DNA of 64,000 nt from Miltoncostaea marina (lineage in GTDB: Bacteria; Actinomycetota; Thermoleophilia; Miltoncostaeales; Miltoncostaeaceae). Under the pieces are notes generated by a model. It had not been told where the DNA came from and did not search any database. It saw only the letters and a list, made by a program, of their open reading frames with translations. The DNA is taken from NCBI RefSeq assembly GCF_018141525.1, contig NZ_CP064655.1:2698501-2762500 (forward strand), in the 5' to 3' direction. The translations under genes and the position numbers were made by a program. This document shows, piece by piece, positions 22,835-30,583 of the stretch; position 1 is the stretch's first letter; every line of letters starts with the position of its first letter.

Positions 22835-24736
<1,902 letters not shown>

Positions 24737-24802
24737 GTGTCTGGTGCCTCCTCGCCGGGTACGGGCCCCGGTCGCCATTGGTTCTCGACTGTCGCTGCAC
24801 CC

Positions 24803-25685: not shown

Positions 25686-26372
25686 CTACCCCGCCCGTCT
25701 CCTCCCCGTCGGGCAGAGGTCCAGCAGGGCGCACCCCCCGCAGCGGGGGCTCCGGGCGACGCAGACCTCCCGGCCGTGGCGGATGAGGCGCATGTGGGTG
25801 GCGAACGCCTCGCCGGGCGGGGTCCAGCGCGTGAGCCGCTCCTGGGCCGCCGCGGCGCTCGCGCCGGCGGGCACGACGTGGGTGCGGAGCGCGATGCGGT
25901 GGACGTGGGTGTCGGCCGGGACGATGTGCGCGCCGAACGAGAAGCACATGACGCAGGCGGCGGTCTTCGGGCCCACGCCCGGGAGCGCGGTGAGCCAGGC
26001 CATCGCCTCGTCGAGCGGCAGGACGCCGAGCCACTCGAGGTCGTCGCCGCGCGGGTCCTCGGCGACGACGTCGAGCACGTGCTGCACGCGCGGCGCCTTC
26101 TGGCTCGGCATGCCCGCCACCCGGACGGCGTCGGCCACCTCCTCGACCGGCGCGGCGCGCACCGCCTCCCAGGTGGGGAAGCGCTCGCGCAGCGTGCGGA
26201 ACGCCCGCTCCTGGTTGACGTCGGTCGTCGAGTGGCTGAGCAGCGTGGTGACCAGCTCGCTCACGGGCGGGTGACGGCGCGCCCACGGCAGCGGGCCGTA
26301 GGCCTCGGCGAGGCGCCGGACGATCGCCTCCGCGTGGGCGCGGGTCCCCGGGCGGGGCCGGACGGGCGGCAC
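25686..26372 (-). CDS. nth: Endonuclease III (DNA glycosylase / AP lyase)
   Basis: 228 residues from GTG at 26372. The helix-hairpin-helix LPGVGPKTAACVMC carries the catalytic Lys and PADTHVHRIA the catalytic Asp. The C-terminal iron-sulfur loop is intact: C-x6-C-x2-C-x5-C in CVARSPRCGGCALLDLC. It removes oxidised pyrimidines and nicks abasic sites. The N-terminal segment has LLSHSTTDVNQERAF where the usual form is LLSAQTTD..VN, a modest divergence in the residues lining the base pocket. It follows the frameshifted gene by 9 bp and likely belongs to the FAH-hydrolase transcript. Confidence 0.93.
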   Translation of the reverse strand: MPPVRPRPGTRAHAEAIVRRLAEAYGPLPWARRHPPVSELVTTLLSHSTTDVNQERAFRTLRERFPTWEAVRAAPVEEVADAVRVAGMPSQKAPRVQHVLDVVAEDPRGDDLEWLGVLPLDEAMAWLTALPGVGPKTAACVMCFSFGAHIVPADTHVHRIALRTHVVPAGASAAAAQERLTRWTPPGEAFATHMRLIRHGREVCVARSPRCGGCALLDLCPTGRRRAG

Positions 26373-27993: not shown

Positions 27994-28650
27994 GTGCGCC
28001 GCCGCCCCGCACCCCTCACGGGAGCCGTCGCCATCAGCACCCAGCTCGACGACCTCGACCCCGGCACGCCGGCGCGCCGTTCCGCGTCGGACGTCGCCTG
28101 GCGCATCGTCGACCGCTCCGGCATCACGCCGAACGCGATCACGATCCTCGGCTTCCTCGGCATCTGCGGCGCCGCGTGGCTCGCGCTGGAGCGCTACTGG
28201 GTGCTGTCGTCGCTCGTCTTCATCGCCTCGGGGCTGGTGGACTCGCTCGACGGGCTCGTGGCCCGGCACCAGGGCCGCGTGACGGCGTTCGGCGCCTTCC
28301 TCGACTCCACCCTCGACCGGCTCGCGGAGGGCGTGATCCTGGGCGCGATCGGGGTCACGCTCGCCCAGGACGGTCAGGACTGGGCCGTCGCGGCCTGCTT
28401 CGTGGCCCTCACCGCATCGTTCCTCGTCTCCTACGCGCGGGCGCGCGCGGAGGGCCTCGGCATCCCGGGCTCGAGCGGCGGGCTGATGGGGCGCCCGGAG
28501 CGCCTGGTGATCGTGGGCGCCGCGCTGTTCCTCGGCGGCCTCGGCGACCTGCTGCCGGTCTCGATGGCGATCCTCGCCGGCCTGAGCCTGATGACCGCCG
28601 TGCACCGCGTGGCGATCGTCTGGATGGCCTCCGACGGGCGCGGCGGGTGA
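27994..28650 (+). CDS. CDP-alcohol phosphatidyltransferase (phosphatidylinositol-phosphate-synthase-like)
   Basis: Up to 218 residues from GTG at 27994. The family motif D-x2-DG-x2-AR-x8-G-x3-D-x3-D is complete in VDSLDGLVARHQGRVTAFGA followed by FLDSTLDR. Several membrane helices follow (TILGFLGICGAAWLAL, VLSSLVFIASGLV and others), and the enzyme acts at the inner membrane with CDP-diacylglycerol. The next gene is a GT4 glycosyltransferase, as in the actinobacterial pgsA1-pimA arrangement, so PIP synthase is the likely role (inference from order). The start is uncertain: the best Shine-Dalgarno (GGGAG, 28020-28024) precedes ATC at 28033, which would give STQLDDLDPG as the N-terminus. Confidence 0.85.
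   Translation: MRRRPAPLTGAVAISTQLDDLDPGTPARRSASDVAWRIVDRSGITPNAITILGFLGICGAAWLALERYWVLSSLVFIASGLVDSLDGLVARHQGRVTAFGAFLDSTLDRLAEGVILGAIGVTLAQDGQDWAVAACFVALTASFLVSYARARAEGLGIPGSSGGLMGRPERLVIVGAALFLGGLGDLLPVSMAILAGLSLMTAVHRVAIVWMASDGRGG
28020..28024 (+). promoter_or_regulatory. Shine-Dalgarno-like GGGAG before an in-frame ATC
   Basis: GGGAG followed by eight bases and then ATC-AGC-ACC-CAG. The annotated GTG at 27994 has a poorer context. If ATC initiates, 13 residues are removed from the N-terminus. Confidence 0.35.
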
Positions 28651-28660
28651 CGCCGGGGCC

Positions 28661-29854
28661 GTGACCGCGCCGCTGCGCATCGGGCTCGTGTGCCCGTACG
28701 CCTGGCCCCCGCGCGACGACGTCGCGCACCACGTCGAGGCCGAGGCCGCCGCGCTCGCCGCGCGGGGCCACGCGGTGGCGGTGCTCGCGCCGGCGCGCCG
28801 GCGCGCCGCCGTCGCCGACGGGCGGGCGCGCCTCGCGGCGGCCGCAGGGCGCGACGACCTGAGCCTCGCGCCCATCCCCGGCGAGGTGGCGGCGATCGCC
28901 GTGGGACGCGCCCTGCCGGCCGGCCGGCGCGGCATCGGCGACCCGCTCGACCTGGCGCGAGGCCTGCGCACCGCCATCGCGCACCCGCACTTCGACGTGG
29001 TGCACCTGCACGAGCCGCTCGCCCCGGGCCCCGCGCTGACGGCCCTCCGCCACGCGCACTCGGCGGCCCTCGTCACCTTCCACCGCCCGGAGCCGCTGGC
29101 GGGCGCGGCCCTTCTGCTGCCCCTCATCGCCCGCGCGCTGGCGCGGGCGGACCTGCGCCTGGCCACCTCCGCCACCACGGCCGCGGGCGTCGCGCGCATC
29201 GCGCCGGGCGACTACGAGGTGCTGCGCCCCGGCGTGGACGCGCCGGCCCCGCCCGCGGCGCCGGCGGCAGGCCCGCCGCGGCTCGTGCTGATCGCCCGCG
29301 GCCACGACCGGGTGGGCGTGCGCTTCCTCACCGCGGTGCTGCGCGAGATGGGGCCCGGCGGCGTCGGCGAGGTGATGCTGCTCGGGCCGCCCGACGCCCC
29401 GTGGCGCACGCGGGCGGCGGTGCCGGCCGCGCTGCGCGAGCGCGTGCGGGTCGTCCCCGACGCCGGACCGTCCGCGCGCGCCGAGGTGCTGGCTGGCGGC
29501 GGCCTTGCCATGCTGGCCGACCCGGCCGACGCCGGGGGGGCGCCCCTGCGCGAGGCGCTGGCGGCCGGATGCGCCGTGATCGCGCCGCGCGTCGCCGCGG
29601 CGCAGGAGGCGCGGCGCGAGGGCGGCGACGCGGTGCTGCTGCCCGCGTGGGACCGCGGCGCCTGGGCGCGCGAGGCCGGCGCGCTCGCCGCCGACCCCGT
29701 CCGCCGCGCCGCGCTGGCCGCGCGCGCCCGCCCGCCGCGCGGCTGGGACGCCGAGGCCGCCGGGCTGGAGGAGGCCTACCGCCGGGCGCGCGCCGCCCGC
29801 GCGCGGGCCGGCCGGCCGCCGCGGAGCGCCCGCAATCCGCAACCCGACTCCTGA
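28661..29854 (+). CDS. GT4-family glycosyltransferase (PimA-like by context)
   Basis: 397 residues from GTG at 28661, 10 bp after the phosphotransferase gene. The GT-B N-terminal domain begins RIGLVCPYAWPPRDDVAHHV, the usual start of PimA-type mannosyltransferases (PYSWDVPGGVQ..H in the family), with HFDVVHLHEPLAPGPALTAL. The C-terminal donor domain is degenerate: the typical E-x7-E motif appears only as GAPLREALAAGCAVIAPRV. Together with the upstream gene it suggests phosphatidylinositol-mannoside-like lipid synthesis on the cytoplasmic face of the membrane. The tail is Arg/Ala-rich. Confidence 0.82.
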   Translation: MTAPLRIGLVCPYAWPPRDDVAHHVEAEAAALAARGHAVAVLAPARRRAAVADGRARLAAAAGRDDLSLAPIPGEVAAIAVGRALPAGRRGIGDPLDLARGLRTAIAHPHFDVVHLHEPLAPGPALTALRHAHSAALVTFHRPEPLAGAALLLPLIARALARADLRLATSATTAAGVARIAPGDYEVLRPGVDAPAPPAAPAAGPPRLVLIARGHDRVGVRFLTAVLREMGPGGVGEVMLLGPPDAPWRTRAAVPAALRERVRVVPDAGPSARAEVLAGGGLAMLADPADAGGAPLREALAAGCAVIAPRVAAAQEARREGGDAVLLPAWDRGAWAREAGALAADPVRRAALAARARPPRGWDAEAAGLEEAYRRARAARARAGRPPRSARNPQPDS

Positions 29855-29905: not shown

Positions 29906-30583
29906 ATGACCCCAGAGCCCCCCTCGCCGCACACCGGCCCCCGCACACGCGCCCGCCGCGCCGCCCCCACGAGCCTCGCCGGCGCCAGCCCGGAGGACAT
30001 CCAGGAGGCCTACCAGCGGCGCGCGATCGCCGAGATGGCCGCCCTCAACGACGAGATCGGCGCGTCGGAGGACTGCGGCTCGGCCGACGAGCTGCCGGTG
30101 ATGAGCTCCGGCTCGCCGCAGGCCCAGATCATGCTCGTCAAGTGGAGCGCCAGCCTGGCCGAGCGCCAGGAGGGCGTCGCCTTCTTCGGCCGTGCGGGCA
30201 CGGCGATCCTGAAGAGCGTCCAGCGGCTCGGCATCGACCCGCTCGAGCTCTACGGGACGCTGTGCGTGAAGTGCGGCGACCCCGGCGATCGTGAGGCGGC
30301 CCGCCGTGGCCTGACGTGGCTCGCGCGTGAGGTGCACATCGTGCAGCCCGCGCTGATCGTGCCGATGGGCGAGCGCGTGGTCGAGGCCCTCGGGGAGATG
30401 GGGTTCCCCCTGGCCGAGCCGCTGCGCGCCGAGCCGGGCGAGGTGCAGCGCTGGACGCCGGCGATCGAGGCGCTGTTCGTGCCCGACATCGACGCCTCGC
30501 TCGACGAGCAGGGGGCCAAGCGGGCGTTCTGGCAGGCGTTCCGCGCCATCGGCGACTGGCACCAGGCGCAGCCGCCCTACTGA
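29906..30583 (+). CDS. Divergent uracil-DNA-glycosylase-superfamily protein
   Basis: 225 residues. The core follows family-4 UDG order: PQAQIMLVKWSASLAERQEG, VAFFGRAGTAILKSVQRLGI, YGTLCVKCGDPGDREAARRG, LTWLAREVHIVQPALIVPMG. The usual first motif GEAPG is replaced by KWSAS, and the final His-containing motif is not evident (VPDIDASLDEQG stands there). Three cysteines (ASEDCGSA, LCVKCGD) remain near where family 4 has its Fe-S ligands. The fold is likely UDG-like but catalytic residues differ, so it may be a non-glycosylase or a new subfamily. It is alone between the GT gene and the GGDEF gene. Confidence 0.72.
   Translation: MTPEPPSPHTGPRTRARRAAPTSLAGASPEDIQEAYQRRAIAEMAALNDEIGASEDCGSADELPVMSSGSPQAQIMLVKWSASLAERQEGVAFFGRAGTAILKSVQRLGIDPLELYGTLCVKCGDPGDREAARRGLTWLAREVHIVQPALIVPMGERVVEALGEMGFPLAEPLRAEPGEVQRWTPAIEALFVPDIDASLDEQGAKRAFWQAFRAIGDWHQAQPPY

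Follow-up and report, generated by a model that had tools for sequence, protein, structure and literature searches.

A class-wide UDG-fold protein of Thermoleophilia with an invariant lysine in place of the motif-1 glycine

Introduction

Proteins of the uracil-DNA glycosylase (UDG) superfamily are readily called repair enzymes from their fold alone. In family-4 UDGs, four cysteines serve as ligands of an Fe-S cluster, and the motif-2 loop of UDGs enters the DNA minor groove. Family-5 UDGs have no usual motif-1 catalytic residue, yet they are active. For the family-4 enzyme Tth UDGa, the available excerpt of one study (PMC5387724) describes a pocket made of E41, G42, E47, F54, N80 and H155, in which E47 is the thymine-excluding residue, F54 a uracil-pocket residue and N80 the uracil-reading residue; in the E41Q mutant k2/Km falls by three orders of magnitude, and in H155S k2 falls by even more than that factor. 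UdgX carries a GEQPG motif, a KRRIH R-loop and an HPS motif B, and it forms covalent links to AP-DNA, according to the accessible part of a second study (PMC10359453).

Here we describe a protein, present almost throughout one bacterial class, that has lost two key catalytic residues and has a new, invariant lysine at the catalytic motif. It is encoded in a stretch of 64,000 nucleotides from Miltoncostaea marina (contig NZ_CP064655.1), referred to below as the window. Because distant relatives of the protein keep intermediate states, the order in which catalysis, the Fe-S cysteines and the DNA-wedge loop were lost can be reconstructed. A literature search, in which several listings were mostly off topic, returned no description of this lysine lineage, and the words 'uracil' and 'glycosylase' are absent from the main text of a paper on Thermoleophilia markers (PMC6544083).

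A conserved gene of the class

The gene occupies positions 29906–30583 of the window on the forward strand and encodes 225 amino acids from an ATG start, as the initial annotation had placed it. Its product has a UDG fold related to family-4 UDG and UdgX, with a non-standard active site. The G+C content of its three codon positions (0.73/0.53/0.96) follows a coding-type pattern and orthologs are present in 221 of the 229 class genomes sampled (completeness of at least 90%), so the open reading frame is a real, conserved gene. The same distribution, together with 25 invariant columns in an alignment of 48 class sequences, shows that it did not arise by chance, and a Pfam search of the reverse strand of the frame gave no match up to E 1. 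Comparison of the window gene with two members of its genus gave dN values of 0.13–0.15 and dS values of 0.54–0.58; the gene is under purifying selection.

The ortholog is single-copy in 219 class genomes, with two matches in two others, and is found in 90 of 91 genera; restricting the sample to contamination of at most 5% left it in 208 of 216 genomes. The eight class genomes without a match are draft assemblies of approximately 110 to 570 contigs. An even draw of 396 genomes across the phylum gave 52 matches at E 1e-20, 38 of them in the class and 14 outside it; we refer to these 14 as distant members. The distant members L110 and L111 score only 78–81 bits on the class profile. A second profile, A2, was made from class and distant members and is thus partly built from the distant members that it then scores. 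Because family-4-like paralogs also pass E 1e-15 on A2 (approximately 65–99 bits), a match in all genomes does not count members. Searching 36 genomes with A2 gave nine with a match of at least 194 bits. A scan of genome contigs confirmed a single relative.

To place the lineage, we used a tree of 54 rows (22 of the 48 class sequences, all 14 distant members, 16 of 29 family-4 paralogs, one UdgX and one family-5 protein) in which column 79 had been masked. Sequences of the class formed a single group with support of 100/97, and class and distant rows together made up one side of a branch with support of 94/96, slightly below the threshold of the tool; the family-5 row sat on a very long branch. 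On our best reading, the window protein is a class-wide member of a distinct lineage of the Actinobacteria phylum that stands beside family-4 UDG and UdgX. An origin in a mobile element or phage was rejected: no plasmid match to the protein was found, a phage search gave three weak matches at 22–27% identity (the one fetched, L141, is annotated as a uracil-DNA glycosylase), and no relative on viral contigs was confirmed. Among three proteins scanned, PADLOC returned no defence-system model, and PHROGs placed one, from a distant member, in a family whose function is unknown.

A family-4 fold with scores below the family-4 cut-off

The initial annotation had proposed a UDG fold and a possible new subfamily, and both proposals held up. 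The protein matches the Pfam UDG model (PF03167) with 29.9 bits (E 7e-7), above the gathering threshold of 24.3. An AlphaFold2 model built on 48 aligned orthologs had a pLDDT of 90.4 and a pTM of 0.83; its top Foldseek matches were family-4 UDGs (4zby, E 1.2e-12), and the best solved match in VIA-align was 4zbx, with a Z score of 21.8 and an rmsd of 2.4 over 179 residues. Other structures scored lower in VIA-align: 20.0 for 1ui0, approximately 18–19 for UdgX and approximately 13 for MUG and TDG. As modelled, then, the fold is of the family-4 UDG type, and a profile–profile comparison of A2 with seven family-4 paralogs gave E 4e-22.

On the curated family models the protein falls far short of the cut-offs. 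On the NCBIfam model UDG_fam4 (TIGR00758) it reaches 41 bits, against a cut-off of 125.3, and on UdgX (TIGR03914) 40.8 bits, against 189.95. On UDG_fam4, another two proteins of the class reach 46.1 and 42.0 bits and two of the distant members reach 86.6 and 32.8, whereas L114, a family-4 paralog from the class, has 210.5; the UdgX-type paralog of the window's own genome scores 261.1 on the UdgX model. We did not use NF040953 (cut-off 250 bits) as a test, because even L114 falls short of it, at 216 bits. These scores, the missing catalytic residues described below and the separate group in the tree support a separate UDG subfamily without the standard catalytic residues.

The lineage coexists with more typical UDG-family proteins. 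PF03167 matches six places in the window's own genome, among which the window protein ranks fifth by score, short of E 1e-15. One paralog (L001) carries GEQPG and RRIH and is of the UdgX type, a second (L002) carries the family-4 motif and a third (L003), with GLAPA and HPS, is family-5-like. A match at E 1e-15 or better occurs in 40 of the 41 genomes searched, the window's own included. A further UDG-family match in this genome (L006, G000:C1:2115813-2116127; E 5e-5) lies inside a frame of 584 amino acids. Separately, positions 25686–26372 of the window (reverse strand), 3.5 kb from the UDG-fold gene, encode a glycosylase of the HhH-GPD/endonuclease III type that carries an Fe-S motif.

An invariant lysine at motif 1

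A phmmer alignment of the window protein to 1ui0 is gap-free over residues 65–129 (window number minus 39), so K79, W80, S81, E86, F93, L119 and C123 correspond to G40, E41, G42, E47, F54, N80 and C84 of Tth UDGa. The column to which N89 of the latter aligns is variable (the window protein has D128 there) and shows no conserved asparagine. The motif order that had been recognized at first (FFGRAG, CVKC and IVPMG) is present at residues 93–98, 120–123 and 151–155, and GEAPG is indeed replaced by KWSAS at residues 79–83 (30140–30154, forward strand, as are all codons given below).

For comparison, we used 29 rows of family-4 paralogs, picked by the pattern GE(A/G)PG or GQ(A/G)PG plus FxG; of 33 candidate loci, two (L004 and L130) gave no row. 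Lysine occupies position 79 in all 48 class sequences, all 14 distant members and two further distant members, and in none of the 29 family-4 rows, although this zero, like the other motif-1 values and the Phe93 count in those rows, holds by construction because the selection pattern requires the motif-1 residues and Phe93; the counts for His, Asn, Gln142 and Cys do not. Since all 64 members examined have this lysine, the unusual motif 1 is not simply degenerate. Glutamate at position 80, the counterpart of E41, is absent from all 48 class sequences and present in 5 of 14 distant members and in every family-4 row.

Other parts of the pocket are retained. E86 (30161–30163), aligned with the thymine-excluding E47, is glutamate in 48/48 class, 12/14 distant (aspartate in the other two) and 29/29 family-4 sequences, and F93, in the FFGRAG segment (30182–30199) and aligned with F54, is aromatic in every row of the three sets. 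In YGTLCVKC (30251–30274), L119 takes the place of the uracil-reading N80; asparagine is found here in 16 of 48 class sequences, 8 of 14 distant members and all family-4 rows. Gly117 of the same segment is invariant in the class and present in 13 of 14 distant members and no family-4 row. E142 (30329–30331) is invariant in class and distant sequences and is glutamine in all 29 family-4 rows, and Lys205 is likewise invariant in the lineage (48/48 and 14/14) and found in 2 of 29 family-4 rows. Two distant members hold Glu, Asn and His along with Lys79.

The initial annotation had also noted that only part of the Fe-S cysteine set remains. For the window protein this is correct, with two of four family-4 cysteine columns filled (C57 and C123, allowing one column of slack), and the wider alignment shows that the loss is mostly local to the window's family. 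A full set of four is seen in 25 of 29 family-4 paralogs, 13 of 14 distant members and 18 of 48 class sequences, and within the class in 17 of 22 members outside the window's family versus 1 of 26 inside it. This distribution makes it probable that the cluster disappeared within the class, chiefly in the family of the window.

An acidic loop in place of motif 2

The second catalytic motif is gone, as first proposed. The former HPS loop reads PDIDASLDE (30482–30508), with PDID at residues 193–196, and P193 and D196 are invariant in the class rows, whose consensus is mostly P(D/E)IDxSLDE. Histidine at position 193 or 194 occurs in 0/48 class, 6/14 distant and 29/29 family-4 sequences. Residues 193–202 include three to six acidic residues in all 48 class sequences, two on average in distant members and none in any of the 29 family-4 rows. 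Because the motif-2 loop of UDGs enters the minor groove, the acidic loop argues against standard DNA contact. Overall charge proved uninformative as a test of DNA binding, as the class's own family-4 paralogs have an acidic mean too (−5.1, versus −7.5 for the UDG-fold protein), and so the case for lost DNA binding rests on this one loop.

These substitutions bear on the simplest alternative, that the protein is an ordinary family-4 UDG that tolerates them and still removes uracil. The shared fold and the retained F93 and E86 are what such an enzyme would show. However, none of the 48 class sequences has an equivalent of E41 or H155, the scores fall below the family-4 cut-offs, and in Tth UDGa the E41Q and H155S mutations are each costly, by approximately three orders of magnitude (PMC5387724, available excerpt). 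We regard this alternative as very improbable; judging from the alignments, class members are unlikely to excise uracil in the standard way, and the window protein probably does a job other than uracil removal.

Missing residues are no proof of inactivity, because family-5 UDGs are active without the usual motif-1 residue. A second alternative is an active DNA glycosylase with new chemistry, in which Lys79 would act as a nucleophile or general base at a damaged base or abasic site; such a protein could be a glycosylase/AP-lyase or a covalent trap and could act on uracil or another lesion. A lysine that is invariant in 64 of 64 members and sits at the catalytic motif would fit this chemistry, as would the retention of E86 and F93, the two distant members with Glu, Asn and His, and the capacity of the scaffold for covalent AP-DNA links that UdgX demonstrates (PMC10359453, accessible part). 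Yet the motif-2 loop is acidic in every class sequence, the uracil-reading Asn is absent from 32 of 48, stronger UDG-family matches are present in 40 of the 41 genomes searched, and a literature search for a family-4 lyase with lysine/Schiff-base chemistry gave no paper that combined all of its terms. On this balance we consider a new-chemistry glycosylase unlikely, though less so than an ordinary family-4 enzyme.

Lipid genes and dnaK near the gene

A gene for a GT4 glycosyltransferase of 397 amino acids (28661–29854, forward strand) lies immediately upstream, across a gap of 51 bases, and a CDP-alcohol phosphatidyltransferase gene (27994–28650, forward strand), a recurrent neighbour in the neighbourhood comparison, lies beyond it. 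At 36 of the 43 loci where the gene caller found the UDG-fold gene, the next gene upstream is GT4, and in 25 of these 36 the fetched stretch holds inositol-1-phosphate synthase (Ino1) and/or CDP-alcohol phosphatidyltransferase further upstream; the window has the CDP-alcohol transferase and GT4, with no inositol synthase beside them. The 51-base gap is also among the candidate start–stop gaps in ten relatives from the window's family, in a comparison in which several upstream glycosyltransferase lengths and gaps rest on longest-ORF starts. The GT4 frame upstream of the gene is longer in many of the other class families, at approximately 600–700 amino acids, and the one scanned (L049:1713-3749, forward strand) has a C-terminal PHP/PHP_C domain that is absent from the 397-residue GT4 of the window.

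The dnaK (Hsp70) gene lies approximately 5 kb away (22835–24778, reverse strand). It shares a contig with the UDG-fold gene in 15 of 27 class genomes, within 12 kb in all 15. The two genes also share a contig in 6 of 14 distant genomes, and in all six dnaK follows on the same strand, within approximately 3 kb downstream. The linkage looks old, but by itself it is no proof of function.

These neighbours raise a third alternative, in which the protein is a pocketless subunit or scaffold that works through protein–protein contact and serves the inositol-lipid/glycolipid genes or the DnaK system. The recurrence of GT4 and lipid genes and the dnaK linkage are its main attraction. Set against it are family f6 (L046–L048 and L052), in which the UDG-fold gene has no lipid genes beside it, and the 14 distant loci, where lipid-gene references found no match. 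In 12 of the 27 class genomes and 8 of the 14 distant ones, dnaK and the UDG-fold gene fall on different contigs; this often reflects an assembly break, but the two are truly separated, by more than 14 kb, in G046, G051 and G176. Scans of the window and 22 loci for HAIR (at most two mismatches) and CIRCE (at most three) found nothing at dnaK-linked loci, and the strict invariance of the protein centres on the old active site. A scaffold role of this kind seems doubtful, to about the same degree as new glycosylase chemistry.

A heat-shock regulon was rejected, since the sole HAIR match, in L108, belongs to a genome with dnaK on other contigs. Adjoining and divergent from the distant homologue are small genes that look alike by eye (L098:5247-5594, L101:5486-5833 and L109:3878-4243); that of L098 has only sub-threshold Pfam winged-helix matches.

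Discussion

The reading that we prefer, to which we give an even chance, is that the protein belongs to a lineage beside family 4 and UdgX that kept the UDG fold, abandoned uracil excision by the family-4 mechanism and rebuilt its pocket around a lysine. The alignments document the replacement of the motif-1 glycine by an invariant lysine and, in the class, the loss of the motif-1 glutamate and motif-2 histidine and the gain of an acidic loop. Because two distant members retain Glu, Asn and His beside Lys79, the lysine was probably fixed first and the canonical residues eroded later. Lys79, Gly117 and Glu142 appear to have changed together, and for this reason Lys79 probably reaches across the old base pocket to form a salt bridge with Glu142, rebuilding or closing the pocket; this contact is a guess from co-varying columns. 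Class members would not flip uracil from DNA, the acidic loop having replaced the DNA wedge. Because the aromatic F93 and E86 are retained, binding of a nucleotide-like ligand or a binding/scaffold role is the most likely work of the protein, although the same two residues could equally mean that binding of a base in DNA was kept. The presence of the protein beside UDG-type paralogs and the purifying selection on its gene count for the preferred reading; the persistence of asparagine at position 119 in 16 of 48 class members and the low class-profile scores of L110 and L111 count against it.

A bolder version, which we offer tentatively and think unlikely to hold in full, is of a phylum-deep lineage that began with a single Gly-to-Lys change in the catalytic motif and thereby gave rise to a new enzyme or sensor. 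A lysine-bearing glycosylase, as in those distant members that combine Glu, Asn and His with the lysine, would have come first, followed in one class by a core protein that works off DNA, with a new lysine/acidic site and ties to dnaK and inositol-lipid genes.

Among known systems, the protein is closest to the family-4 UDGs (Tth 1UI0 and S. tokodaii 4ZBX), with which it shares the whole fold, residues E86, G90, F93, G95 and G98 of the ExxxGxxFxGxxG segment, K122 and, in most members of the lysine lineage outside the window's family, the four cysteine columns. It differs from them in the lysine for the motif-1 glycine, in E142 for glutamine and in the acidic motif-2 loop; the class has no counterpart of E41 or H155 and no conserved asparagine at the place of N89. 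It resembles UdgX (M. smegmatis, 6AIL) in fold, with a Z score of approximately 18–19, but GEQPG, the KRRIH loop and HPS are all absent from its translation; L001 in the same genome, by comparison, is of the covalent AP-DNA-linking type, as UdgX. With the family-5 enzyme UDGb it shares the superfamily and the absence of the usual polar catalytic residue from motif 1, but it has neither GLAPA nor HPS, and the family-5-like L003 of its own genome falls on the other side of the tree. Outside free-standing glycosylases, its fold matches the UDG-like region of the phiLo family-A DNA polymerase (9QHS) with a Z score of 12.5; that region is part of a phage polymerase of 1122 residues, and the match shows no close relationship.
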